Positions 6,458 through 18,935 of a DNA stretch of 22,194 nt are shown piece by piece. How positions within the stretch are numbered: the stretch's first letter is position 1; each line of letters starts with the position of its first letter. Source of the stretch: a virus; IMG/VR virus record IMGVR_UViG_3300029309_000330, positions 2,404-24,597 of that record; one strand, written 5' to 3'. Under the pieces are notes generated by a model. That model ran no database searches. It worked only from the letters and a program-made list of their open reading frames with translations, and was not told where the DNA came from. The position numbers and the translations under genes are program-made.

Positions 6458-6621
6458 TAATTTAGAAAGAAGTTCTGTGCTTCTACCTCCTGTTTTAATT
6501 CTTCTTGAAACGTGGTGTTTAATTTTTCTACAATTGCATCAAGATCTCTGACCTGTGCTTCTGCCGTTGGCAGATCATATTCCTCACTCGGTCTTGTTAA
6601 TACCTGTACTATCTTTGCCAT
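6457..6621 (-). CDS. 54-aa small phage protein
   Basis: Read by hand: it begins MAKIVQVLTRPSEEYDLPTA and continues with a charged, probably helical C-terminal half (VRDLDAIVEKLNTTFQEEL). It stops at 6457-6459, where the TAA overlaps the ATG of the next gene. At its own start (6621) it overlaps the TAA of the nozzle gene as TAATG. Both ends are therefore fixed by overlaps, which strongly supports a real gene. The heptad-like C-terminus could oligomerise. The function is unknown; its place between the nozzle gene and a small beta protein suggests a tail-assembly or accessory role. Confidence 0.7.
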   Translation of the reverse strand: MAKIVQVLTRPSEEYDLPTAEAQVRDLDAIVEKLNTTFQEELKQEVEAQNFFLN

Positions 6622-8804
6622 TATCTACGTCCGTCCGGTTGTATGTCTAATCTAAAAGTGCCTAATCTCCAATCCTGATTGGTAGAGGTATTTTCTACCT
6701 TTAGAGATACTGCCCTACCTCTTGCTCTTGTGTCAACCTTCTTCGTGCTGGATGTTATATCAAAGGGTCCAAGAGAGGAGCTTGCTCTTGCATCATTTGG
6801 AAAATCTCTTAGATTTAAAGTGACCCTTGTTGCTCCTGTCTGTGATATGAAATCTGGTATAAATCTCCTGACCTTCATTATAAACTCACCGTCTCCTCTA
6901 AGATCTGCAGAGCCTGTTGTTTGACCTAGTGCACTTCTTCTTTGACTAATATCAAAATCTCCAGAAGATATGTTTGCGAGTATCGCGGTTGTTGTTCCAC
7001 CCTGAACCTGATCTGTTCCTGTCTCATGTTGATAATAAATTGTTCTACCCTCTGTGTTGCCCACGACATCAAAAGAAGAATCGTTACCTGCGGTATATTC
7101 TGTTGCATGTGGGCTACCGAACACGGCAGAATCCTGCCACATTGTTCTAGCTAATGTGCCCACTGTCCATACTGGCCTTTGTGGTGAAGAGTCAAAATAG
7201 TTATATGCAACCATTCTGTTTACAACAGAGGATGAGGAAGTTGGATAGAACCACATGACCTCACCAAAAAGATTGTTTAGTCCGGCAGATATCATTTGAT
7301 TGCCGGATTCTAGATTTATATCATTGTATACAAAATCCTCTACCAGACACGGTAGTGATTCTAATTTACCAGCATATCTAAAGAAACCATTTTCAGATAA
7401 CCAATATGCAGAACCATCAACCTCGACACATGCGTTCTGTCCTGTAAGTCCACAGTTTGTACCTACCTGTGAGAAAGCAAATGTAAAAGGTTGACCAACA
7501 AAACGCATGGTAAATAGAGCTGTGTCAGTCCAAACAAGAATCGAATCTCTACCACGAATTGCTCCTCTGATCTGTGATCCGTCGGCTAATCTCTGTGTGC
7601 CGGCTGTATTGGTTGCTGTTGGTGTATATGTATTTATATCCTCCTGATCAGAGAATCTTATAAACATATCATCTTGTGTTGACGTATCACCAATCGTTGT
7701 TTCTGTTCCAAAGAATACCAAGTGACGATCCGGTGTAGATACCAACATGTGTCTTGATGCTGTGGGTGCACCAGATATAATACTTGCTCTGATATTCTCT
7801 GCTCCTGCTGCTGCAGAGTTCCATTCAAATACAGCACTATCATGTATCAGGCAGATTGCCTTATCACCAAAATTATCTAGTGACCACATACCAGGTTCTA
7901 ATACCAAATCACCCGATGCTGCCTCACCCCATGCCACAAAATTTGTCGTGCTGGTTACTGTATCTCCAGCCCCGTGAGATGCAGCGGTCGTCCCTCTGAC
8001 CTCTCTCGTGACACCTGTCAATTCATTCGAGGTGCTTATACCTGTATAAGATATTTCCTCTGTTCCTATCTTTATAAAGTTTGTGCCTGAATCTGGGAAC
8101 TGTGATACGTCTGTTAATATAATACCACTTGTGACCGAAGCGTTTATCGCAGCGGATAGAGTTGTTGTTGGCTCACCTGCAACCTCACCTCCCCATGTTC
8201 CAAGAGACCAACCAAAACCTTTTGCCTGCACCGCTGGTCCTACAGGATAATAGTGTTGCACTCTGATACCACCCGATGTTGTTGCACCAGATCCTGATTC
8301 TGCTGATGGCATTGTGATCGTGATTGTTGTTGCATTAGGGACTGTTGTCACCATAAATTTTTTATCGTCAAAATCTGTTGCTGCAAAATTAGAATTGGTT
8401 ATTGATGAAAAGCTGTCTAATAAAATTATGTCCTGTTCACCTATACCGTGATCTCCACTAAAAGTTATTGTAACAGATGTTGATCCGTTGGTCGTGGTAA
8501 ATGCACTTGTGAGCGTTGTCGTCGTTTTGATGGGATGTATGTCGTAGTATACACCACCAGAGAATGCATATAGAATTCTATTTGTACCTATGATTGCATA
8601 CTTTCTAGCTTTACTATTTACAAAATGATGTAGTCCTCTGCCTGCTCCTGTAAGAGCGTCATCACCTAGCTGTTTCCAACCACCTATCTTTTCTGGAATA
8701 CCGTAACGGAATCTGACATTATCACAGTCTGTCCACTGACCCTCTGCCCCAGTATCTGTAATCTGTTTGTTTATACCTGGTTGAAAACCTATCTTTTGTA
8801 ACAT
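6621..8804 (-). CDS. Tail nozzle/hub protein (P22 gp10 'stabilisation' class)
   Basis: This 727-residue protein opens with MLQKIGFQPGINKQ, followed by 'DCDNVRFRYGIPEKIGGW' (residues 27-43). That N-terminus is typical of phage packaged-DNA stabilisation/tail nozzle proteins (Pfam Phage_stabilise type, P22 gp10). These cap the portal-adaptor ring and form a beta-propeller-like tail tube end. Two inserted beta domains are visible: about 93-180 (Thr/Ser-rich, 'VTITFSGDHGIG...IILLD') and about 212-290 ('FIKIGTEEISYTGI...LTGVTREVRGTTAASHGAG'). The latter motif recurs in many marine phage virion proteins. The C-terminus returns to the family core and ends LDIQPDGRR. GAGG lies just upstream of the ATG. 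The gene follows the oxygenase pair by 16 bases. The family assignment is from memory of sequence style. Confidence 0.82.
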   Translation of the reverse strand: MLQKIGFQPGINKQITDTGAEGQWTDCDNVRFRYGIPEKIGGWKQLGDDALTGAGRGLHHFVNSKARKYAIIGTNRILYAFSGGVYYDIHPIKTTTTLTSAFTTTNGSTSVTITFSGDHGIGEQDIILLDSFSSITNSNFAATDFDDKKFMVTTVPNATTITITMPSAESGSGATTSGGIRVQHYYPVGPAVQAKGFGWSLGTWGGEVAGEPTTTLSAAINASVTSGIILTDVSQFPDSGTNFIKIGTEEISYTGISTSNELTGVTREVRGTTAASHGAGDTVTSTTNFVAWGEAASGDLVLEPGMWSLDNFGDKAICLIHDSAVFEWNSAAAGAENIRASIISGAPTASRHMLVSTPDRHLVFFGTETTIGDTSTQDDMFIRFSDQEDINTYTPTATNTAGTQRLADGSQIRGAIRGRDSILVWTDTALFTMRFVGQPFTFAFSQVGTNCGLTGQNACVEVDGSAYWLSENGFFRYAGKLESLPCLVEDFVYNDINLESGNQMISAGLNNLFGEVMWFYPTSSSSVVNRMVAYNYFDSSPQRPVWTVGTLARTMWQDSAVFGSPHATEYTAGNDSSFDVVGNTEGRTIYYQHETGTDQVQGGTTTAILANISSGDFDISQRRSALGQTTGSADLRGDGEFIMKVRRFIPDFISQTGATRVTLNLRDFPNDARASSSLGPFDITSSTKKVDTRARGRAVSLKVENTSTNQDWRLGTFRLDIQPDGRR

Positions 8805-8820
8805 ATGACCTCATTATATA

Positions 8821-9387
8821 TTAAAAGGCCCAGCTTACAAAGGAGTAACGGGTGCCTTTTGTAGTCTCTCTAACCTCATGTGGATACATAAAGTTAGATG
8901 GAAATAACAGTATATCACCTGTTTTTAGCTTAATTTCCTCTCCTCTGCAATAGAATTCAGAGCCCTCATAGTCCTCATTTAGGTTAGCCACGATGGATAC
9001 CAGAGGCACTCCTTTCATCTGACCATCAAATATACTGTGTATATGATCGTAATGTTCCCTCATCATCGTGCCCACCTGATACCTGTTAAAACGTATGGGA
9101 CTAAATTTATGTAACCACGGTGCTTGAGTCTTCTCTCCTGGTGTGCTGTTCTTTTCCTGATATTTACTTAATGCCTCCACGAGATAAGGCGTTATCTTTG
9201 CCTGTTGCTCCTTGGTGCAATTCATAACATCTAATTCTTTTGTGGGTTCTGATTCAAAAGTCCCCGTAGCATAGTTATTCCAAGTGTGTTTTTTCCAAAT
9301 GCCCTTATTACATTCATCTATTAATGTCTCACATACCTCTTTTGGTATGGTATTTACCACCATTATGTAGTCTTTAATTGTGCTCAT
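8821..9387 (-). CDS. 2OG-Fe(II) oxygenase, prolyl-4-hydroxylase-like
   Basis: A 188-residue enzyme with the signature of Fe(II)/2-oxoglutarate dioxygenases. His112 and Asp114 in 'REHYDHIH' form the HxD facial-triad start, His170 in 'MYPHEV' is the distal metal ligand, and Arg180 in 'GTRYSFVSW' is the likely 2-oxoglutarate anchor. 'GSEFYCRGEEIKLKTGDILL' between them is the typical double-stranded beta-helix core. The family couples 2-oxoglutarate decarboxylation to hydroxylation of a protein, nucleic acid or small-molecule substrate; here the substrate is unknown. All catalytic residues are present, so the enzyme should be active. The start at 9387 has GGAGG seven bases upstream and overlaps the upstream oxygenase gene by 14 bases. 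Relatives are common in cyanophages and other marine phages near structural genes. Confidence 0.88.
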   Translation of the reverse strand: MSTIKDYIMVVNTIPKEVCETLIDECNKGIWKKHTWNNYATGTFESEPTKELDVMNCTKEQQAKITPYLVEALSKYQEKNSTPGEKTQAPWLHKFSPIRFNRYQVGTMMREHYDHIHSIFDGQMKGVPLVSIVANLNEDYEGSEFYCRGEEIKLKTGDILLFPSNFMYPHEVRETTKGTRYSFVSWAF

Positions 9388-10000
9388 TCATTAACCTCCT
9401 TATGTCCAAATGAGTTAGTGATTGTTCTGATCCGATAGCGTCAATACAAAATGTATTGAATGATACACTTATTCTATCTTCTTCACTTTGATTAATTGGC
9501 ACGCTATGTTTCAACGAAGATGGAAATAATATTAATTCACCTGGTTTACAAGGTAATAAAAAAGATTCTGAGTTTACATGGTTATATTTTATAGGGTCTA
9601 ATTTCATACCATCTTGATTTGTTTTTGAAAACTGTATGGGCGGTAATTTCTCATTTATTTGAAAATACATAACACCGGATATGATACTGTTCGGATGCAC
9701 GTGTTCGTGATGCTTGGACCCTTTTGGGTTTCTGTTAGCCCAACATTGAGTGATTACTAATCTTTGTTCTGAGTTTAAAACGTTCTTGGTAAATTTATCT
9801 ACAGCCTCACCCAAAAAGTTTTTTATGTTTTTTAATTCTTCTTTACGTAACAGGTACGAATCATCAGATCTATAATTACCGTTTTGTTGTTGCTCACGAT
9901 AACTAATAGTTTTTAAATATGCTAGCTCTTTATCAATAGGCTCCTCGTAAGGAACAATTAATAAAGGTGTCGGAAATAATTCTAGTAATTCTTCTTTCAT
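9374..10000 (-). CDS. Putative 2OG-Fe(II) oxygenase, TIGR02466-like
   Basis: A second oxygenase of a different subfamily, with the pattern 'CWANRNPKGSKHHEHVHPNS' followed by 'IISGVMYF'. The likely metal-binding region is His98-His102 with the H-x-H-P element, the distal His is His165 in 'SSLKHSVP', and Arg176 in 'DRISVSFN' is the 2-oxoglutarate anchor. The block 'PGELILFPSSLKH' is a hallmark of this family. I choose the ATG at 10000 (208 residues), which overlaps the sulfotransferase stop as TAATG, over an in-frame TTG nine bases upstream. No Shine-Dalgarno is seen, so coupling is probable. Its substrate is unknown. Encoding two distinct oxygenases in tandem suggests they act on different positions of one target or on different targets. 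Confidence 0.8.
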   Translation of the reverse strand: MKEELLELFPTPLLIVPYEEPIDKELAYLKTISYREQQQNGNYRSDDSYLLRKEELKNIKNFLGEAVDKFTKNVLNSEQRLVITQCWANRNPKGSKHHEHVHPNSIISGVMYFQINEKLPPIQFSKTNQDGMKLDPIKYNHVNSESFLLPCKPGELILFPSSLKHSVPINQSEEDRISVSFNTFCIDAIGSEQSLTHLDIRRLMNEHN

Positions 10001-10788
10001 TATACCCAAAAGTTACATTGTTTATATTCGTCTATAATATTTTTTGGTACGATATCATAAGCGTTATAGTCTTCTTTATAATTTTTTATAGCACCTTCTT
10101 TCAAAATATGCAATCCATTTCCTACAATGGCGTCATCGTAAACCATATCGTTTACTTTAAATTGTTTTATATCATCAAAATCATGTTTTACCTTGGGTAT
10201 ATTTAAAAAGTTATACACATTATTTATTATATTTTCTGTGTCTTTAACCAAGTCTTTAAAATTAATTACGTGATACAATTCTTTAGGTTGATAATCCAAC
10301 AAATGCTTTATACCTATTAACTCTTTGACTATTACACCTTCTTTGTTCATTAGCATATGACATTTTTCTTCTCTTGTTTTAGCTTCATATTGATTAACAA
10401 AAGAAGAAGGTTCTCTTTCAGACCAGTTTAAAAAAGATCCTAATACCTCTATTATGTCTCTAACTAAAACAATAATTTTTATATTAGATTTTATTTTTTT
10501 TAAATTTTTTAAATTTGTTGGATGTCCCCAAGGTGCTCTATCAATAATATATTTGTAATTCCAATCTTTGTAGTAATTGTTAAAAATATTTTTTGTTACA
10601 TTTTCTAAAGAACTATGATCTGGAAAATTTTTAAAGATATCTGTGTTTTGTAATAAATATATTTCACCAAGTATATCAGCACAAATACTATTGGCTGTAA
10701 CAGCTATATCTTTGTTTTGATTCATAATAGAACTAAATACGGTATTGCCAGCACGAGGTAATCCGTGTAGGAAAAATATGTCTTTCAT
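10000..10788 (-). CDS. Sulfotransferase family protein
   Basis: A 262-residue protein with the 5'-phosphosulfate loop 'GLPRAGNT' at residues 9-16 right after a hydrophobic strand (DIFFLH). The 3'-phosphate motif is at Arg110 and Ser118 in 'IIVLVRDIIEVLGSF'; the R-to-S spacing of eight matches the classical family. Such enzymes transfer sulfate from PAPS to hydroxyls or amines on carbohydrates, proteins or small molecules. The gene is noticeably more AT-rich than its neighbours (34 G+C in the 120 bases 10021-10140, against 31 in the 60 bases 8161-8220 of the nozzle gene) and rich in Lys, Asn and Ile codons, consistent with separate acquisition. No Shine-Dalgarno is obvious. A 5-base inverted repeat (10790-10794 with 10802-10806) sits in the 20-base gap before it. 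The acceptor is unknown. Confidence 0.82.
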   Translation of the reverse strand: MKDIFFLHGLPRAGNTVFSSIMNQNKDIAVTANSICADILGEIYLLQNTDIFKNFPDHSSLENVTKNIFNNYYKDWNYKYIIDRAPWGHPTNLKNLKKIKSNIKIIVLVRDIIEVLGSFLNWSEREPSSFVNQYEAKTREEKCHMLMNKEGVIVKELIGIKHLLDYQPKELYHVINFKDLVKDTENIINNVYNFLNIPKVKHDFDDIKQFKVNDMVYDDAIVGNGLHILKEGAIKNYKEDYNAYDIVPKNIIDEYKQCNFWV

Positions 10789-10808
10789 GTATAGGATAAT
10801 ACTATATT

Positions 10809-12680
10809 TTACGAACTTTGTAAACCACCATGTGAGTCAGAAGTTGCTCCACCTTGACCTTTTTTATCGAATAAATCTCCAAAATCTATTGCGTTACCTG
10901 TGCTAGCAATAGTAACATAATCTATTGTTCCGTTATAACTTGGTTCATAACCACCCATCCATATAGCTCTTGTTGAGTTTGAAGTAGAAGGCACTCCTGC
11001 TCTAGCGACTGTTAGATCACCAAAATCTGTAGCGTTACCTGTCGAAGCTATTGTAAAATAATCAATAGTATTTACTGTAGAAGGTGTTTGACCTCCTCCA
11101 TACAGAGCTCTTGTTGAAGAAGAAGATGCTCCACCATATGAAGGTGTTCCACTTAAATCACCAAAATCTGTAGCATTACCTGTAGAACCAATTGTAATAT
11201 AATCTACTGTATTTACATAAGTTCCTCCTGGTGCTAAATATCCACCTAAAAACAATCCTCTTGTTATGTTTCCTGTTCCTACGACTCTTCTAGCTTGTGT
11301 TAAATTACCAAAGTCAGATGCATTACCTACGGTTGCAATTGTATTATATCCAATAGTATCTACAACAGTAGACCCATTAGAATCACCACCTCCGTATACA
11401 ATTCTAGTTGTTGAAGCTGTAGAACCAGGATCTCTACGACCAGTTTGTAAATTACCAAAATCAGCAGCATTTCCTTGAGACTGCATTTCAACATAATCGA
11501 TAACATCAGAATATCCAGGAGCATTACCACCAGCAGATATTGCTCTTGTAAGACTTCCACTTGAAGCATTGTTGTTTCTAGAATCTGTTAAATCTCCAAA
11601 GTCGGAAGAATTACCTAAAGTTGTAATAACTGTTAAATCCATACTTGCAGTTATTCCACTTCCATTTTCTCCACCCATCATCAAAGCTCTCCCTGATCCA
11701 GGCATATAGGTTACTGATGGACGTTGAGTTTCACCGAGTTCTAAACCACCATGACCACTTGATGAAGTTGCTTGAGTATTATTTCTAGCTGATGTTAAAT
11801 CACCAAAATCAATGGAATTACCAGTGCTTGTTAAACTCCAATATTGAATAGTATTTATTAAAGTTGAATCATTACCTGGATCAGAACCACCCATAGCTAT
11901 ACCTCTAACAGAATTATCGGTACAACCATGATAATTAGTTCCTGTTACCAAGTCTCCATAATCAATTGCATTACCTAAAGATGCAAACTGAACTGATTCA
12001 AATAAAGAAGCTGGTTGACCACCTGCAAAAACACATTTTGTTGCACTAGCTGAAGCTTGAACACCTAAAGCTGTTGCAGTTAAATCTCCAAAATCTGTAG
12101 CATTACCTGTTGAAGATATTTCTACAAAATCAATTACGTTACTATTTGGACTTGATCCAGATGCCATTAAAGATCTTGTTGGATTAGCAGCAGCTCCTAC
12201 AGAATTTCTTGATTCTGTTCTATCTCCAAAATCTGTAGCATTACCAAGTGAGGCTATGGTTATAAAATCTATTGTATTAATATTACCAGAAACAAAACCT
12301 CCACCAAATAAACCTCTAATATTATTACCAGATCCTGAACAAGCTCTTCTTGTTACTGTTGAATCACCAAAATCAGCCATGTTGCCTTGAGAATTAAAAT
12401 GAATGTATTGTATTACATTTGTATTTCCTGATCCTGTATAACCATTAGACATTATTCCTTTAATGGATGAAGATGCTCCTCCGCCAGTTCCTAGAGTAGC
12501 TGTTAAATCTCCAAAATCTGTTGAATTACCAGTTGTAGATATTTGAACAGTATCTATTGTATTAACCACTGAAGGAGTAGTACCACCACAACAAATTGCA
12601 GTGTCTCCTCTTGACCAAGCATTATTTCTTTGCTGTTTATATGCTTCTCGTACATCCCAAATTTTTCCTGAATTAGACAT
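10809..12680 (-). CDS. Propeller-repeat protein D: two six-repeat modules
   Basis: A 623-residue repeat protein. The start is the ATG at 12680, which overlaps the previous TAA and has GGAGG (12690-12694) nine bases upstream; a longer frame to 12719 lacks a start signal. The N-terminal ~26 residues hold a short anchor motif 'KIWDVREAYKQ'. Module 1 (about 27-313) and module 2 (about 331-621) each have six ~47-residue repeats of the form TRxIFxGG...TIDYITIASTGNATDFGDL. Each module ends in SGHGGL or DSHGGL. A 17-residue linker with 'QRP' joins them. The regular Gly-Gly turn and the strand-rich repeat suggest six-bladed beta-propellers resembling kelch or galactose-oxidase folds. It is probably a tail fibre or receptor-binding protein. 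It is the last propeller gene before the enzyme cassette. Confidence 0.78.
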   Translation of the reverse strand: MSNSGKIWDVREAYKQQRNNAWSRGDTAICCGGTTPSVVNTIDTVQISTTGNSTDFGDLTATLGTGGGASSSIKGIMSNGYTGSGNTNVIQYIHFNSQGNMADFGDSTVTRRACSGSGNNIRGLFGGGFVSGNINTIDFITIASLGNATDFGDRTESRNSVGAAANPTRSLMASGSSPNSNVIDFVEISSTGNATDFGDLTATALGVQASASATKCVFAGGQPASLFESVQFASLGNAIDYGDLVTGTNYHGCTDNSVRGIAMGGSDPGNDSTLINTIQYWSLTSTGNSIDFGDLTSARNNTQATSSSGHGGLELGETQRPSVTYMPGSGRALMMGGENGSGITASMDLTVITTLGNSSDFGDLTDSRNNNASSGSLTRAISAGGNAPGYSDVIDYVEMQSQGNAADFGNLQTGRRDPGSTASTTRIVYGGGDSNGSTVVDTIGYNTIATVGNASDFGNLTQARRVVGTGNITRGLFLGGYLAPGGTYVNTVDYITIGSTGNATDFGDLSGTPSYGGASSSSTRALYGGGQTPSTVNTIDYFTIASTGNATDFGDLTVARAGVPSTSNSTRAIWMGGYEPSYNGTIDYVTIASTGNAIDFGDLFDKKGQGGATSDSHGGLQSS

Positions 12681-13948
12681 TATTGTAAACCTCCATGTGA
12701 TCCTGATGAGCCAAAACAACCGCCTCTAGTGACAGTTAAATCTCCAAAATTTGTAGCATTACCTGTTGATGCAATTGTAATATATTGAATAGTGTTATTA
12801 CTTTCTGGAGAAGTACCACCAGTAAATATACCTCTAACTGAATTAGAAGAAGTTCCAGGGTTAGTGTATGCACTTAATAAATCTCCAAAATCTGTAGCGT
12901 TACCCGTTGAAGCAATTGTTACATAATCCATAGTATTAAGAGCTGGAGAAGGTCCTCTACCCGCACCATATACTGCTCTTGTTGAAGATGAAAGACCAGC
13001 TAAATATCTTCGTTCTACAGTTTGATCTCCAAAGTCTGTTGAGTTACCAGTCGATGCAAGTGTTACATAATCCATAACATTTGTATTTCCACTAGGTCCT
13101 CTTCCTCCAGAAAAAATAGCTCTTGTAGAACTAGCTGCACCACCACTTGATCTTAAACCATCACTAATATATCTGTCTCCAAAATCAACAGCATTACCCA
13201 TACTTGATATGGTTACAAAATCTATAATATTTTGTGAACCACCTGGAGATACATATCCAGGGCCAAAAATAACTCTAGTTTTATTAGACATTGATCCAGC
13301 ATTTAGTTGTGTTCTTCCTTGTGTTAAATCACCAAAATCAGCAGCATTACCTTTTGTTGCAAATTGAAAATAATCAATTACAGCAGATTTATCTGTAACA
13401 GGATTAGCATCACCTCCAGCTTGAATTCCTCTAGTTGTAGAAGAACCACCCACACAATCTCCTCTTGCTTGTGATAGATCACCAAAATCAGATGCATCAC
13501 CTGTTGTTGAAATTTGTATATAATCTATTGTATTATTAGCAGATGGAGCAAAACCTCCTGCAAATGCTGCTCTATCCGTGTGCCCTGATCCACTGCCTCC
13601 TGGTATGTCTATGTTGGCGCCCATCGCACTATGTTGAGTACAATAATAATACAATATGGTTGGTGTAGAACTTGTTACCTCTATCTCCGTATAAGCTCCT
13701 GCATTTCCAGGTGTTCCTGCTACGGTCACACCGGTAGAATAAGCGCTGCCTCCGCCGTGAGTTCCATTATCGGTTTCTGAAAAACGAAAAGGGTGACCAT
13801 CATTACTACTATCAGCCTGATCAAATCTAAAAGTGCCACCAGGAAATAAAGTTACATATTGTTGTTGATTACCATCGATAACATATTTGTTACCCGAACC
13901 GGTGCTTACCACCGTGACCTTATAAGTGAATGAAGTTGCTCTAGCCAC
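12680..13948 (-). CDS. Cupredoxin-like domain fused to one six-repeat propeller (protein C)
   Basis: A 422-residue protein in two parts. Residues 1-~115 form a cupredoxin-like beta domain with 'TFRFDQADSSNDGHPFRFS' and 'YYYCTQHSAMG'. His52, Cys103, His106 and Met109 match a type 1 copper ligand set, with the C-x2-H-x2-M spacing of amicyanin. A Gly/Ser linker follows, then one six-repeat module (about 123-420) ending SGSHGGLQ. It is the only one of the four propeller proteins with a single module and without the Trp anchor motif at its N-terminus. The start is GTG at 13948, supported by GGAGGG (13956-13961) seven bases upstream; it overlaps the previous gene by eight bases. It is probably a virion surface protein. 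Copper binding is inferred from residues only. Confidence 0.8.
   Translation of the reverse strand: MARATSFTYKVTVVSTGSGNKYVIDGNQQQYVTLFPGGTFRFDQADSSNDGHPFRFSETDNGTHGGGSAYSTGVTVAGTPGNAGAYTEIEVTSSTPTILYYYCTQHSAMGANIDIPGGSGSGHTDRAAFAGGFAPSANNTIDYIQISTTGDASDFGDLSQARGDCVGGSSTTRGIQAGGDANPVTDKSAVIDYFQFATKGNAADFGDLTQGRTQLNAGSMSNKTRVIFGPGYVSPGGSQNIIDFVTISSMGNAVDFGDRYISDGLRSSGGAASSTRAIFSGGRGPSGNTNVMDYVTLASTGNSTDFGDQTVERRYLAGLSSSTRAVYGAGRGPSPALNTMDYVTIASTGNATDFGDLLSAYTNPGTSSNSVRGIFTGGTSPESNNTIQYITIASTGNATNFGDLTVTRGGCFGSSGSHGGLQ
12690..12694 (-). promoter_or_regulatory. Shine-Dalgarno GGAGG inside HGGL codons, sets start of protein D
   Basis: The codons CAT GGA GGT TTA (His-Gly-Gly-Leu) at the end of protein C supply GGAGG nine bases before the ATG at 12680. 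This decides the start of protein D at 12680 rather than the longer frame. Confidence 0.6.
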
Positions 13949-15836
13949 TGATTAACCCTCCATGTCCGTTTGATTGAGATCCACCACTTTGTGAAGTAGG
14001 ACTTATTAAATCTCCAAAATCAGAAGCATTACCTGTTGATCCAATAGTTATAAAATCCATTATATTACTAGCACTTGGCGTAAGTCCACCATTAAAAACT
14101 CCCGTGACAGAATTAGTTCCACCTCTTTTCATAGTGCTCCTTGCAGAAGTTAAATCTCCAAAATCTGTAGCATTACCAGTAGTGGCTGTTGTAATATATT
14201 CTATAGTGTTTACTACCGATGACCCATCTGATCCTCCTCCAAACACAGCTCTTGTTGAAGAATTAACACTTCCTGCTTGAGATCTGTTTCCAGATAAATC
14301 TCCAAAATCTGTTGCATCACCTGTTGTTGATATTGTAAAATACTCTATTACATCAATTCTTGATGGAGTATAACCTCCTCCTATGATAGCCCTAGTATTA
14401 TTTTCTATTCCTGCGCCACCTGCTTTGCTAGCGCTTAAATTTCCAAAATCTGCTGCGTTACCTAAAGTTGATATACTTATGTAATCAACGACATTAACAG
14501 TTTCTCCTCCCATAAATAATCCTCTAGTATTATTACTAGCACCAGCGACTTGTTGAACTGAATTTGTTCTATCACCAAAATCTGCTGAGTTTCCTTTTGT
14601 GGCAAAAGTATAATATTGAATAACATTTGTATTGGATGGGTTATAGCCTCCTCCTTGTACAGCTCTTGTTTTATTACCAAGAGATCCTGCAGTTAAAGCC
14701 TTATTTGTTGTATCTCCAAAATCTTGTTCATTTCCTGAACTAGATATTTTAAAAGATCCAACATACGTATCATTTCCATTATCCCTATCACCACCCATAT
14801 TTATACAAAGATCCCCACCAGCTTCGTTAAATGGTAATGGTCTTGTTCCTTGATACCCGTCGTTTAGTCCGCCGTGCGAGTTTGATGTTCCCCCTACAGC
14901 TGTTCTTGAATATGTTAAATCTCCAAAATCTGAAAAAGTCCCTCCATTTGCAATAGTTACATTTTGAATTACATTTTGTACTGTTGGAGTTGAACCACCA
15001 CAATTAAAACCTTTTACACTATTTGATACCCCTGCACTATCTCTCATTGCAGTTTCTAAATCTGCATAATCTATTGCATTACCTTGAGAGGCTATTGTTA
15101 TAAAATCTACAGTCCCAACAATACTAGGAGTAAAACCACCAAGAGTTATTCCTCTTGTTGATGAACTAACATTAGAATTTGCAGGTCTTCTTGATTGTGA
15201 TAAATCTCCAAAATCTGTAGCATTACCAGTTGTTGCAATCTCTATAAAATCTATTGTGTTTACTATTGATGGAGCGGCTCCTCCACCAAAACAACCTCGT
15301 GTTGGGGAACCCATACCTGAGGATTGTCTTCTTGCTTGTGTTAAATCACCAAAGTCAGTTGCATTACCAGTTGAAGCTAAAGTTATGTATTGAATAATAT
15401 TACTTGGAGAACCTTGCCCTCCTGCTTGTACACCTCTTATAGAATTACTAACTGGTGCTGTTAAATCAAGTGAAGCTGTCATGTCTCCAAAATCAGCGGC
15501 GTTTCCTTCTGTAGAAAAAGTTACATAATCAATAACATTAGTAGCAGCACCTGGACTTTGATAGCCACCTCCAAAAACAGCTCTTGTAAAAGAACTCATT
15601 CCACCTGGCGAAAATCTATCTGTAGATAAATCTCCAAAATTAGATGCATTTCCAGAAGAACTCATGTTTATAAAATCTATTATTGAAACGTAATTAGTTC
15701 CTCCGTTTGGAGTGTTTCCACCAGCAAGTAAACCTCTTGAATTTGCATTCGGCCAATACCCACCCATTACCGCGTCATAGACTTCACGCAGATTCCAAAC
15801 GCCTGAAGCGTTATCAAGTTGCGGGTAGTTAGCCAT
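13941..15836 (-). CDS. Propeller-repeat protein B: two six-repeat modules
   Basis: A 631-residue repeat protein beginning MANYPQLDNASGVWNLREVYD. The 'GVWNLREVYD' segment (residues 12-21) matches the short Trp-containing N-terminal motif of the other two-module propeller proteins and probably attaches the fibre to the virion. Module 1 (35-324) has six repeats and closes with NSHGGL. A 17-residue linker (with 'GTRPLPFN') leads to module 2 (342-~628), also six repeats, closing with NGHGGL. Repeats are 44-51 residues; the most conserved part is 'GNATDFGDL', followed by a variable loop and then 'TRGxFxGG'. The loops vary strongly between repeats, as expected of a ligand-binding surface. It starts four bases after the stop of the 96-residue gene. 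A receptor-binding role is inferred. Confidence 0.78.
   Translation of the reverse strand: MANYPQLDNASGVWNLREVYDAVMGGYWPNANSRGLLAGGNTPNGGTNYVSIIDFINMSSSGNASNFGDLSTDRFSPGGMSSFTRAVFGGGYQSPGAATNVIDYVTFSTEGNAADFGDMTASLDLTAPVSNSIRGVQAGGQGSPSNIIQYITLASTGNATDFGDLTQARRQSSGMGSPTRGCFGGGAAPSIVNTIDFIEIATTGNATDFGDLSQSRRPANSNVSSSTRGITLGGFTPSIVGTVDFITIASQGNAIDYADLETAMRDSAGVSNSVKGFNCGGSTPTVQNVIQNVTIANGGTFSDFGDLTYSRTAVGGTSNSHGGLNDGYQGTRPLPFNEAGGDLCINMGGDRDNGNDTYVGSFKISSSGNEQDFGDTTNKALTAGSLGNKTRAVQGGGYNPSNTNVIQYYTFATKGNSADFGDRTNSVQQVAGASNNTRGLFMGGETVNVVDYISISTLGNAADFGNLSASKAGGAGIENNTRAIIGGGYTPSRIDVIEYFTISTTGDATDFGDLSGNRSQAGSVNSSTRAVFGGGSDGSSVVNTIEYITTATTGNATDFGDLTSARSTMKRGGTNSVTGVFNGGLTPSASNIMDFITIGSTGNASDFGDLISPTSQSGGSQSNGHGGLISG
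13956..13961 (-). promoter_or_regulatory. Shine-Dalgarno GGAGGG inside HGGL codons, sets GTG start of protein C
   Basis: The codons CAT GGA GGG TTA at the end of protein B give GGAGGG seven bases before the GTG at 13948. This is the reason for accepting a GTG start that overlaps the upstream gene by eight bases. Confidence 0.65.
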
Positions 15837-15839
15837 TTA

Positions 15840-16130
15840 CTAACCTATCTTTTTAGACCAGATATATGTGGCTGCTGCTGTTTGATCGAATGGTACAGTT
15901 GCAGTTGGATCATCAGAACTAGGATCATCTTGAGTCCAAGAAGATGTATACGTATCTAAATACGTTTTTACATCTGCCTCACTTGCAAGTTCACCAAGTC
16001 CAGTTTCATCCGAACCATCAACCGTTGCACCAATCATAATTTCAGAAGGATCAGGATAATATCCACCATCATCTATCCACGATGGAATTCTTCCTGCTTC
16101 TAATTGATATTTAACTATCTTGTTTGCCAT
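15840..16130 (-). CDS. 96-aa protein of unknown function
   Basis: A small acidic protein (MANKIVKYQLEAGRIPSWID...) with 'GGYYPDPSEIMIGAT' in the middle and a Thr/Asp/Pro-rich region (about 60-80) before a C-terminal 'AATYIWSKKIG'. AAGGAG lies eight bases upstream of the ATG at 16130, and the gene overlaps the preceding coiled-coil gene by 20 bases. It has no signal peptide or membrane segment. I recognise similar small proteins beside fibre genes in marine phage contigs but cannot name a family. Its position directly before propeller protein B and the tight overlap suggest a virion or fibre-assembly role; this is inference. Confidence 0.7.
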   Translation of the reverse strand: MANKIVKYQLEAGRIPSWIDDGGYYPDPSEIMIGATVDGSDETGLGELASEADVKTYLDTYTSSWTQDDPSSDDPTATVPFDQTAAATYIWSKKIG

Positions 16131-16962
16131 TTGGTTTCTCCTTATTATCTAACAGTTTAGTATTGAGCGAGTCTTCATCGTACAGCTTAAATCCTCTTCG
16201 CTCTGCGAATTTTACAGATTCACCAGAGAATTTATCAGCGCACGCTTCTAACCATTGCATGGTCATTTCGTGAGTTGGCGCTTTACCTTCGTCCATCAAC
16301 TTATTTTCCATTTTTAAATAAGCATAGATTTCGGCTTGTGCCTGAGCACTATTTATACCCATGTCAAAGAGATAAATCAAGTTACCTTCGTCAATAACTC
16401 CACCTCTTGCACGAGCAGCATTCAGAGCCTGTTTCATACACGTCATTACGTGATATCTAGCCTCCTCTTTTTCGTACTCTTCCTCTGTGATATCATCTTT
16501 ACCCAACTTCTTCAATATACTTTTATATTGATTGGTAAAGAAGTTCATCTTCCTGATGGCACCAGATACTGAATTCTGTATGTTATTCATGTTTACTTTG
16601 ACCTCTAGGATCTCAGTTTCTAATAGTTCTCTTTCCAGCTCATCTTTGTAGTCTCCATCAGCTAATTTCTTTTCTTTCTGACGAAGCTCTATATCCTTCT
16701 TCATCATTTTAAGCTGTGCCTCTTCCAGAGCCATTCTGGTTTTATCCAGTTCAGCCAGTGTGTGTTTGACTGATCTGATAGGTGTGATCGCTGTGACATC
16801 CAACATCACTCCCATAAACTGTGAGTGTGATTTGTAGAAGTTTGAGCTTGATTGTTTTATCGCTGGTAGTGTTGCGTTGATGTTGGTCAACATCTGTTTA
16901 TACTCTTTCTTGACCAGTGGTGAGTTTGATAGTTTCTGTATTACCAGATCTTTAGATGACAT
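16111..16962 (-). CDS. Coiled-coil helical protein, 283 aa, unknown function
   Basis: The protein starts MSSKDLVIQKLSNSPLVKKEY and is strongly charged and helical. Residues about 63-135 (LAELDKTRMALEEAQLKMMK and onward) read as a long coiled coil, followed by 'GAIRKMNFFTNQYKSILKKL'. The C-terminal third contains 'NAARARGGVIDEGNLIYLFD' and 'MTMQWLEACADKF', which look like a globular helical domain. An AAAGGAG lies just upstream of the ATG, and a 62-base gap separates it from the preceding propeller gene, the largest gap in the window. It is unlike its beta-rich neighbours in composition. I know similar hypothetical proteins from marine phages. A chaperone for fibre folding or an internal protein would both be possible; neither is shown. 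Confidence 0.75.
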   Translation of the reverse strand: MSSKDLVIQKLSNSPLVKKEYKQMLTNINATLPAIKQSSSNFYKSHSQFMGVMLDVTAITPIRSVKHTLAELDKTRMALEEAQLKMMKKDIELRQKEKKLADGDYKDELERELLETEILEVKVNMNNIQNSVSGAIRKMNFFTNQYKSILKKLGKDDITEEEYEKEEARYHVMTCMKQALNAARARGGVIDEGNLIYLFDMGINSAQAQAEIYAYLKMENKLMDEGKAPTHEMTMQWLEACADKFSGESVKFAERRGFKLYDEDSLNTKLLDNKEKPNGKQDS

Positions 16963-17024
16963 ATTTTTCTCCTTTATAATTTAGCATGTATATGATCATG
17001 TTGTGGGTTTTATACTATAGAATC
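16963..17024 (-). other. 62-base intergenic gap, possible promoter
   Basis: This is the longest noncoding gap in the window. On the coding strand it is AT-rich and contains TATAGTATAAAAC, a perfect ATGATCAT palindrome (16992-16999) and the Shine-Dalgarno AAAGGAG of the coiled-coil gene. A sigma70-like or phage promoter could sit here, but no convincing -35 box is visible and the AT-richness makes chance matches likely. No hairpin followed by a T-run is seen, so it does not look like a terminator. Confidence 0.25.
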
Positions 17025-18935
17025 TTATGAAAGTCCACCGTGTCCGTTAGCAAACCCTGCTAGATTATTTCTGCCAGTAGATAAATCTCCATAGTCAGTA
17101 GCATTACCAGTTGAAGCTATGGTTACTTTTTCAATAGTTTCTCTTGGAGATGCTCTTCCTGCAAAAATACCTCTTGTATTATTACTAACACCGCATCCAA
17201 TAGAATCTACTGGTGGAGTAGATGCAGGATCTCCAAAATCTGTTGCATTACCTGTTGAGGCAATAGTTATATAATCGATAACAGAAGATGCTCCTGGTTG
17301 ATTACCACAATAAAACACACCTCTTACAGAAGATGAACAACCACTTAAATATCTTCTCGCTTCAGTTAAATCTCCAAAATCTGTCGCATTACCTGTTGAT
17401 GCGATTGTAACATATTGTATTATGTTTGTGTTAGCTGGAGCAGTTTGACCTCCTCCAGAAATCCCTCTAGTTGAACTAGCTAATCCTGCATTATCACTTA
17501 TCACACTAGTAGCATCTCCAAAATCTGTAGCATCACCTATGGTAGCTATAGTTATATAATCAATTGTATTTACTACACTAGGACTGTGTCCTCCTATCAT
17601 AACTGCTCTCGTTTGATTAGAAGCTCCTGTTCCTCTTCTTCTAGCAACTGTTAAATCTCCAAAGTCAGCATTGTTGCCTTTAGTTGATATTGTCACATAC
17701 GATATTGAGTTTATATTAGTTGGACTAACATACCCACCTGCAAAAATACCTCTAGTATCACTAGCGGCAGCAGCGGCAGAATTAAATGCAGCTGAAGCTG
17801 TTATATCTCCAAAATCTACAGAATTACCATCAGCTGATATAGTTATAAAATCAATTACATTACTATTTCCTGGATTTACTCCTCCACCAAATACTCCAAT
17901 GTCTCCCACACCTAAACCTCTTGGTACAACTTTACCTGTTGGTGAATAAAGTTCCGGGGCTCTTTGATTAAATGTTTGTAGACCACCATGACCATTTGAA
18001 GTTGCGTGTGCAGCCGTTCTTGCAACAGTTAAATCTCCAAAGTCTGTCGCATTAGCGGCAGACGCTATTATTTTTTGTTCAATAACATTACTAACACTTC
18101 CTTTTGCAAATAATCCTAATATGCTATTTGAAGTTCCTCTTCCATTTTCAGTTGTTCCAGAAAGTGAATCACCGTAATCAACAGCATTTCCTAAACTTCC
18201 AAATTGAATTGTTTCTATTTTTTCTCTTGTAGAACTATCTTGTCCACCAGCCATAACCATTCTAGTTTGACTTCCAAAACTTGATTGGCTTCTTTGAGCA
18301 GCACCCAAGTTTCCAAAATCTACTCCATTACCTGTTGTGGCAAGTTCAAAAAAATCTATTGTATCTACATTAGATGGAGTATTTCCTCCTGCTTTTATTC
18401 CTCTTGTTGGATTAGCCGTACAAGTAGGTAAAGCAGTTGCAGCTTGTGTATCTCCAAAATCTGTTGCATTACCTAAAGTAGCGATGTTAACTGAATCAAC
18501 TGTATTAACACGAGAAGGTGTTAATCCATCAACACTTAAACATCTAATGTTGTTACTCATCCCTGCTAGATAACTTCTAGCGGCTGTTAAATTTCCAAAA
18601 TCTGCAAAATTACCTGTAGATGCAAAATGAACATAATCTATTATATCTGTATTTGGGTGACCACCACAAGAAAGTCCTCTAACAAAACTTCCTCCCCCTG
18701 CATTTAAATCTCTTGCAACAGATAAATCTCCAAAATCAATTGCATTACCTGCCGTGCTAGTTTGAAAATAATCTACTACAGTTGATGAACTTGGGGCTCC
18801 ACCACCCATCCATATAGCTCTAACGGCTCCTGTGTTAGAATTAGGATAAGTTCCATCACCTTTTATATTTTTAGTAATATCATTGATTTTCCAAAGCCCT
18901 CTTGCTTGGTCTCGTCTAGGATAACTGTCCGACAT
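17025..18935 (-). CDS. Propeller-repeat protein A: two six-repeat modules
   Basis: A 636-residue protein, first of the propeller series in transcription order. It begins MSDSYPRRDQARGLWKINDI; the Trp15 region matches the N-terminal anchor of proteins B and D. Module 1 (residues 38-319) contains six repeats and ends SNGHGGL. A 26-residue linker with 'QRAPELYSPTG' follows, and module 2 (346-635) contains six more and ends ANGHGGLS. Typical repeats contain 'VNTIDYITIATIGDATDFGD'. A few repeats are degenerate (for example the sixth, with 'ASAANATDFGDL'), as in old internal duplications. AGGAGG lies 8 bases upstream of the ATG. The strict 6+6 count and closing motif suggest two closed six-bladed propellers side by side. 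A function as fibre or adhesin is inferred from location between tail genes. Confidence 0.78.
   Translation of the reverse strand: MSDSYPRRDQARGLWKINDITKNIKGDGTYPNSNTGAVRAIWMGGGAPSSSTVVDYFQTSTAGNAIDFGDLSVARDLNAGGGSFVRGLSCGGHPNTDIIDYVHFASTGNFADFGNLTAARSYLAGMSNNIRCLSVDGLTPSRVNTVDSVNIATLGNATDFGDTQAATALPTCTANPTRGIKAGGNTPSNVDTIDFFELATTGNGVDFGNLGAAQRSQSSFGSQTRMVMAGGQDSSTREKIETIQFGSLGNAVDYGDSLSGTTENGRGTSNSILGLFAKGSVSNVIEQKIIASAANATDFGDLTVARTAAHATSNGHGGLQTFNQRAPELYSPTGKVVPRGLGVGDIGVFGGGVNPGNSNVIDFITISADGNSVDFGDITASAAFNSAAAAASDTRGIFAGGYVSPTNINSISYVTISTKGNNADFGDLTVARRRGTGASNQTRAVMIGGHSPSVVNTIDYITIATIGDATDFGDATSVISDNAGLASSTRGISGGGQTAPANTNIIQYVTIASTGNATDFGDLTEARRYLSGCSSSVRGVFYCGNQPGASSVIDYITIASTGNATDFGDPASTPPVDSIGCGVSNNTRGIFAGRASPRETIEKVTIASTGNATDYGDLSTGRNNLAGFANGHGGLS
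17031..18824 (-). repeat. Array of twelve ~140-base coding repeats (protein A)
   Basis: Twelve repeats of the same type as at 10809-15734, in two blocks of six: about 17979-18824 and 17031-17900. They are separated from the second array by the coiled-coil and 96-residue genes. Confidence 0.85.

Follow-up and report, generated by a model that had tools for sequence, protein, structure and literature searches.

Gene content and organisation of the locus

The window is the whole stretch of 22,194 nucleotides analysed here, part of a 24.6 kb IMG/VR fragment (IMGVR_UViG_3300029309_000330), in which 20 genes run on the minus strand. Read from the 22.2 kb end, small tail proteins are followed by four propeller-repeat genes, three enzyme genes, the nozzle gene and ejection proteins (Table 1). 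From the first tail gene to the nozzle gene, intergenic gaps are 62 bases or less. As all genes of this block also run in one direction, it looks like a single operon. The enzymes are a sulfotransferase (ST) and two 2OG-Fe(II) oxygenases (OG5 and OG3). For OG5, the ATG at 10000 was adopted as the start; the TTG in the open reading frame list is merely mechanical.

A preliminary description of the window had placed three overlapping enzyme genes inside the virion gene block. This was confirmed. Pfam scores are above the curated cut-offs, and homologues are present in many viral contigs. The ST stop codon and the OG5 start codon lie within one TAATG, and 14 bases are common to OG5 and OG3. The position between an upstream propeller-repeat gene and the downstream nozzle gene is conserved in relatives.

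Table 1. Features of the enzyme locus and its neighbours in the window
Feature	Position	Strand	Description
Nozzle/‘stabilization’ tail protein	6621..8804	-	phrog_3287 4e-100; 16 bases downstream of OG3
OG3, 2OG-Fe(II) oxygenase, PKHD/prolyl-hydroxylase-like	8821..9387	-	188 aa; PF13640
OG5, 2OG-Fe(II) oxygenase	9374..10000	-	208 aa; PF13759; ATG at 10000
Sulfotransferase (ST)	10000..10788	-	262 aa; PF13469/PF00685; PAPS-dependent type
Spacer, 20 bases	10789..10808	-	start of variable slot between last propeller gene and OG5
KELd, last propeller-repeat gene	10809..12680	-	phrog_19111 2e-16; ~47-residue repeats, GNATDFGDL motif
KELc, propeller-repeat gene, N-terminal tail-fibre-like domain	12680..13948	-	phrog_30742 tail fiber protein 8e-28
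KELb, propeller-repeat gene	13941..15836	-	phrog_19111 8e-20
KELa, propeller-repeat gene	17025..18935	-	phrog_19111 1e-13

Sulfotransferase

ST scores above the cut-offs of PF13469 (5.4e-10, 40.3 bits; cut-off 27) and PF00685 (1.2e-8, 35.1 bits; cut-off 22) and matches phrog_27463 (3e-44). The PAPS loop PRxGNT is formed by R12, G14, N15 and T16, and the 3′-phosphate site by R110...S118. R12, G14, N15 and S118 are invariant in the family alignment and R110 is nearly invariant.

The fold model (pLDDT 94) is closest to tyrosylprotein sulfotransferases (TPSTs) and CurM, with heparan-sulfate 3-O-sulfotransferases close behind. TPST1/2 are the best fold match by E-value; the similarity is moderate (TM 0.53–0.58) at 11–15% identity. 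After the 5′-PSB loop, N33 of ST aligns with the catalytic Glu of TPST, a position placed by our own sequence alignment. Asn or His is conserved here in the ST family. TPST-type tyrosine sulfation was considered on account of the promising fold, but was set aside because of the Asn at the Glu position. A second reason was that propellers of loci with and without ST do not differ in Tyr frequency (p = 0.49).

Oxygenases

OG5 exceeds the cut-offs of PF13759 (9.9e-24, 84.1 bits; cut-off 27) and TIGR02466 (2.9e-29, 102 bits; cut-off 62.5) and matches phrog_81 (6e-45). The textbook iron site of 2OG oxygenases is a 2-His-1-carboxylate motif, HxD/E...H. A search for this canonical site in the aligned OG5 family found HxH instead, with an invariant H100-x-H102...H165 and a nearly invariant R176 throughout. 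As HxH is common to the aligned family, it bears on how far canonical iron binding can be claimed and leaves the membership in PF13759 untouched. The fold model of OG5 is closest to the uncharacterised structures 3bvc and 2rg4, followed by a bacterial 2OG oxidoreductase, the EF-Tu prolyl hydroxylase and PHD2.

OG3 is assigned to PF13640 (2.6e-11, 44.8 bits; cut-off 27) and phrog_61 (3e-28). In 30 diverse sequences, its motif H112-x-D114...H170...R180 has invariant H112 and H170, and D114 and R180 are nearly so. Sequence matches in the PDB are PKHD-type hydroxylases (1.7e-5). Scores against the PKHD NCBIfam equivalog models are far below the cut-off (36 vs 143 bits).

Catalytic residues had been described as intact in all three enzymes. 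This holds for ST, which keeps the PAPS-binding residues, and for OG3; for OG5 it has to be qualified by the HxH in place of HxD/E. Sequence and fold-model matches of OG5, OG3 and ST suggest that the substrates may be of protein type.

A constant oxygenase pair and an optional sulfotransferase

Scans of IMG/VR viral contigs yielded 56 loci for ST, 139 for OG5 and 550 for OG3, of which the best 80 of the 139 and the best 80 of the 550 were kept. One ST locus (L002) is nearly identical to the window. The overlap of OG5 and OG3 is identical in all 106 non-redundant loci with close OG5 and OG3. In this set, a propeller gene lies upstream wherever the upstream region is visible. The nozzle gene follows OG3 in 94 of 94 loci with a visible downstream region, after a gap of 17–20 bases in 93 and of 53 bases in one.

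ST is present in 22 and absent in 71 of the 93 loci with a visible upstream region; the share with ST is biased upwards, as part of the loci were fetched with ST itself. Where present, ST always lies two bases ahead of OG5 in tblastn coordinates, corresponding to the TAATG junction. In loci without ST, the last propeller gene mostly ends 22–32 bases before OG5. The slot before OG5 holds a different PF13759 oxygenase gene in five loci. On the DNA tree of OG5-OG3, ST changes state 12 times, and at least six changes are forced by well-supported branches. The constant unit is the oxygenase pair, whereas ST is optional, a cassette that occupies the preceding slot in some loci. The frequent lack of ST and its repeated gain or loss indicate that the oxygenases work without it. 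Hydroxylation followed by sulfation of one target, the chemistry first suggested for the set, is not supported as its purpose, as the same pair occurs without ST in about three quarters of the loci.

Median dN/dS values are 0.18 for ST, 0.09 for OG5, 0.09 for OG3 and 0.17 for the nozzle gene. Purifying selection on the oxygenase pair is strong. The number of loci and the low dN/dS argue against a chance occurrence of the genes. Mean pairwise identities are 79% for ST, 88% for OG5, 90% for OG3, 75% for the nozzle and 46% for the last propeller.

Related phages and distant sulfotransferase loci

The record stems from an uncultured marine phage whose nearest annotated phages are HTVC023P-type pelagiphages, which belong to the viruses of SAR11 bacteria. 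Their nozzle proteins are 43–48% identical to that of the window, and homologous tail and nozzle genes occur in the same order, with 2OG genes upstream. Profile searches for 2OG genes in three complete HTVC023P-type genomes found 3, 2 and 3; each lies in the interval from the fibre genes to the nozzle gene or immediately ahead of the latter. The clustering of 2OG genes in these pelagiphages was already published in a study that leaves sulfotransferases unmentioned (PMC9599517).

A 2OG gene lies within 4 kb of ST in all 22 close loci and in 31 of the 35 distant loci with usable flank; in the other four, the contig ends ~0.4 kb or less downstream of ST. Profile matches among 111 neighbouring genes of distant ST comprise 23 to PF13640, 21 to PF13759, 7 to an APS-kinase profile, 7 to a cytidylyltransferase-like profile, 3 to a flavin halogenase and 1 to a carbamoyltransferase. 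Flavin-dependent halogenases stand among 2OG genes in tail blocks of related phages (L045:4925-12868, which also has a carbamoyltransferase, L047:4333-5769 and L177:4043-5614).

The enzymes could, with other genes, tailor a small molecule or a capsular polysaccharide. Halogenases and a carbamoyltransferase beside many 2OG genes at distant ST loci would fit such a secondary metabolism, which was proposed for a halogenase/carbamoyltransferase/2OG cluster of jumbo cyanophages (Iyer et al. 2021, PMC7824862). However, the window has three tailoring genes only and no scaffold-making enzyme, and the usual complement of close relatives is OG5 and OG3 alone. This explanation is very improbable.

Possible supply of the sulfate donor

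A gene for an APS-kinase-like protein and a gene for an HxGH nucleotidyltransferase-like protein occur together in 80 of 80 viral loci. An ST-family gene lies directly upstream of the pair in 58 of the 66 loci with a callable upstream gene. ST and the pair form a compact, often overlapping module (L022:2146-3654, L044:3122-4597, L191 and ~55 more). Most APS-kinase-like viral loci also have ST; of 79 such loci, 75 have a structural marker close by and 63 the nozzle gene. In the window, the pair was not seen next to ST.

By sequence, the pair is weakly APS-kinase-like and NMNAT-like. Its linkage to ST makes it plausible that the pair supplies the sulfate donor by making PAPS. An ordinary, NadR-like NAD salvage would be compatible with the NMNAT-like sequence; the tight linkage to ST argues against it.

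An adjacent pair of APS-kinase-like and small HxGH nucleotidyltransferase-like genes is also carried by two SAR11 genomes that lack the ATP-sulfurylase family. These chromosomal pairs are located in single-cell genomes (L185:1495-2276 and L186:1495-2276). The nucleotidyltransferase-like protein is encoded in 32 of 60 genomes of the SAR11 family, in some of them in a frame long enough for a fusion. For Ca. Pelagibacter, assimilatory sulfate reduction was reported as missing, with cysDNCHIJ and sat absent, while cysC and cysQ are entered for several strains in one of that paper's tables (PMC5069961). The cysC record is therefore mixed. The optional ST and the linked pair provide a concrete, checkable link from phage tail genes to sulfate activation, which the hosts are believed not to have.

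OG3 relatives outside tail blocks

A homologue of OG3 in P-SSM2 (40% identical) is located in a DNA-replication block and labelled ferrochelatase. Position is thus not decisive. This protein (L162:8631-9224, T4-GC165) scores 38.6 bits with PF13640 (cut-off 27) and is thus a 2OG oxygenase that databases probably misname. The ‘ferrochelatase’ signal published for phages may in part reflect this misnaming. The pelagiphage ‘ferrochelatase’ phrog_2954 (L156:10289-10909, L157:12054-12710) has an invariant HKD...H motif and no match to the Pfam ferrochelatase. It was considered as a candidate hidden 2OG oxygenase, but homology to 2OG enzymes was not established: profiles could not be matched with significance, and a PDB search returned nothing.

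A scan of genome contigs for the host found the phage locus itself on no SAR11 contig. The same scan retrieved Nitrospirota homologues, a phage contig in a Maricaulis bin and two chromosomal SAR11 paralogues. In the Maricaulis-bin phage, OG3 (51% identity) lies directly before the nozzle gene, and the propeller family of the window is not in view. OG3 homologues of Nitrospirota (50–53% identity) directly follow CysN/C in eight genomes (including L171, L174 and L178). In seven of these loci, the homologue closes a visible sulfate-activation operon of the CysH-DsrE-CysD-CysN/C type, one of them without the DsrE-like gene. Other Nitrospirota homologues have different neighbours. The homologues in P-SSM2 and Nitrospirota demonstrate that the enzyme family is not restricted to virions.

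Few unexplained genes of the very abundant marine phages are as common as those for 2OG oxygenases, which are generally classed as auxiliary metabolic genes. The targets of OG3 and OG5 could be metabolites or regulatory proteins of the host, for example in sulfur or 2-oxoglutarate metabolism. The sulfate-activation genes ahead of Nitrospirota homologues and the replication block of P-SSM2 are in line with such a function, and a modulation of 2-oxoglutarate was proposed for marine phage oxygenases (PMC3037559). We regard it as quite unlikely. A purely metabolic role does not explain the nozzle adjacency, which is fixed in every visible locus. In the three complete HTVC023P-type genomes, profile searches recovered 2OG genes from the tail block only, and the sulfate-activation context is not shared by the other Nitrospirota homologues.

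Propeller repeats and surface structures as possible substrates

The four propeller-repeat genes of the window (10809-18935) encode ~42 copies of a 47-residue repeat and are fast-diverging beside highly conserved enzymes. In 1725 repeats, the motif G-N-A-x-D-F-G-D-L has its two Asp conserved to 96% and 84% and its Asn to 89%. Propeller identity is unrelated to the identities of ST, OG5 and OG3 (rho 0.10–0.13). A comparison of repeat positions between loci with and without ST comprised 212 tests; none survived correction (best p = 0.0005). A coadaptation of ST and propellers was rejected on these grounds (rho 0.13 for ST). If propellers are the substrates, the target could only be the conserved part of the repeat.

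Propeller or fibre proteins had been named as attractive substrates. The conserved position supports this; the lack of covariation between propellers and enzymes and the presence of ST and OG3 relatives in phages without the propeller family of the window weaken it. The co-occurrence with repeat proteins, put forward as a check, was found in close relatives and breaks down farther out. The small structural protein ‘MAHFAKI’, often encoded before ST or 2OG genes in relatives, was considered as a further substrate and dismissed since it is absent from the window.

The enzymes may alternatively modify the host surface. Hydroxylation or sulfation of an outer-membrane protein, lipid or glycan would block the re-adsorption of sister or other phages, and the enzyme genes would stand beside adhesin genes because both concern the same receptor. 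Placement between the adhesin and nozzle genes is consistent with this, as is the turnover in the ST slot while adhesins diversify. In cyanophage S-SRM01, an ST lies near genes for a glycosyltransferase, a nucleotide-sugar epimerase and a tail fibre, and by TM-score the ST of the window is about as close to heparan-sulfate 3-O-sulfotransferases. On the other hand, the window has no glycan or lipid genes alongside the set, the matches of OG5 and OG3 are largely protein hydroxylases, and late expression in a lytic phage would leave little time for a change of the surface. A modification of the host surface is unlikely on balance, but it is the strongest competitor of the explanation preferred below.

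Proposed function

The best explanation, held tentatively, is a late module for tailoring the tail or adhesin proteins of the phage itself. We infer that the module would be expressed late from the tail operon of an HTVC023P-like pelagiphage relative. The fixed, protein-hydroxylase-like pair of OG5 and OG3 would be catalytically active and hydroxylate side chains of tail or adhesin proteins during their synthesis; candidate sites are Asp, Asn or Tyr of the repeat motif. ST would be an accessory cassette, swapped in and out of its slot, and transfer sulfate from PAPS onto the same class of structures. Sulfation would then alter surface charge and receptor binding.

Tailoring of the phage's own tail is suggested by the co-directional operon, the identical overlap of the oxygenase genes, and the nozzle adjacency in close relatives and in the Maricaulis-bin phage. 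It is consistent with the confinement of 2OG genes to the tail block of complete genomes and with the location of distant ST in tail blocks. Further support comes from the matches to protein hydroxylases (EF-Tu prolyl hydroxylase, PHD2 and PKHD), the TPST/CurM-like fold of ST and dN/dS values of 0.09–0.18. A precedent are the glycosylated virion proteins of the mycobacteriophages Che8 and Rita (PMC11256854). Counting against it are the missing covariation with propellers and the conservation of the oxygenases, which far exceeds that of the proposed fibre substrates. The Asn at the TPST Glu position, the moderate fold similarity to TPST and the OG3 relatives outside virion blocks also speak against it. 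The finding is strongest in the fixed pairing of the oxygenases within the tail operon, and weakest in a single-target pathway of hydroxylation and sulfation.

More broadly, the abundant SAR11-type podoviruses may possess a recurrent adhesin-tailoring island in the tail operon, in which oxygenases and an optional sulfotransferase or halogenase decorate their own tail proteins. In many relatives, a non-canonical PAPS-making pair would stand directly behind the sulfotransferase, matching the adjacent pair in SAR11 genomes without ATP sulfurylase. This generalisation is somewhat doubtful. If true, the island and its PAPS-making pair would explain the stand-alone cysC listed for SAR11. Sulfated phage virions would, to our knowledge, be without precedent. 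A literature search for virion mass spectrometry of the HTVC023P-like group found none. The 2OG genes hold a constant position ahead of the nozzle gene, and profile searches of three complete genomes gave none at other sites. A role in the virion or at the surface can therefore be tested directly in two cultured phages, HTVC023P and HTVC027P, whose isolation host was Ca. Pelagibacter HTCC1062.

Comparison with known systems

HTVC023P, HTVC027P and 023Pt_psg01 share with the window the nozzle family and the clustering of 2OG genes between fibre and nozzle. The window differs by the fixed overlapping oxygenase pair, the added ST cassette and the lack of a ‘ferrochelatase’ neighbour. TPST1/2 are the top fold match of ST by E-value; ST is not a member, with 11–15% identity, a TM of about 0.55 and, in our alignment, Asn at the Glu position. 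OG3 has the domain, the HxD...H...R motif and a match to solved structures in common with PKHD-type hydroxylases (Sbal_3634, PiuC, YbiX), but remains far under the equivalog cut-offs. OG5 is above the family cut-off of the PF13759/TIGR02466 ‘putative 2OG-Fe(II) oxygenase’ proteins (3bvc, 2rg4) and has the same fold, whereas its conserved HxH departs from the usual HxD/E.

PF13469/PF00685 sulfotransferases were annotated in marine phages, with a function stated as unclear (PMC10580990). They are encoded by the cyanophages S-SKS1 and S-SRM01 and by OM43-phage contigs; the S-SKS1 protein is 26% identical to ST. The ST of the window belongs to a well-supported family of its own, whose genes lie in podovirus tail blocks and are coupled with 2OG genes and in many cases with the APS-kinase-like pair. 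The jumbo-cyanophage cluster (PMC7824862) comprises enzyme kinds similar to those that adjoin distant ST relatives. It is a separate 10-gene cluster of large cyanophages, whereas the genes described here are located inside a podovirus-like tail operon.
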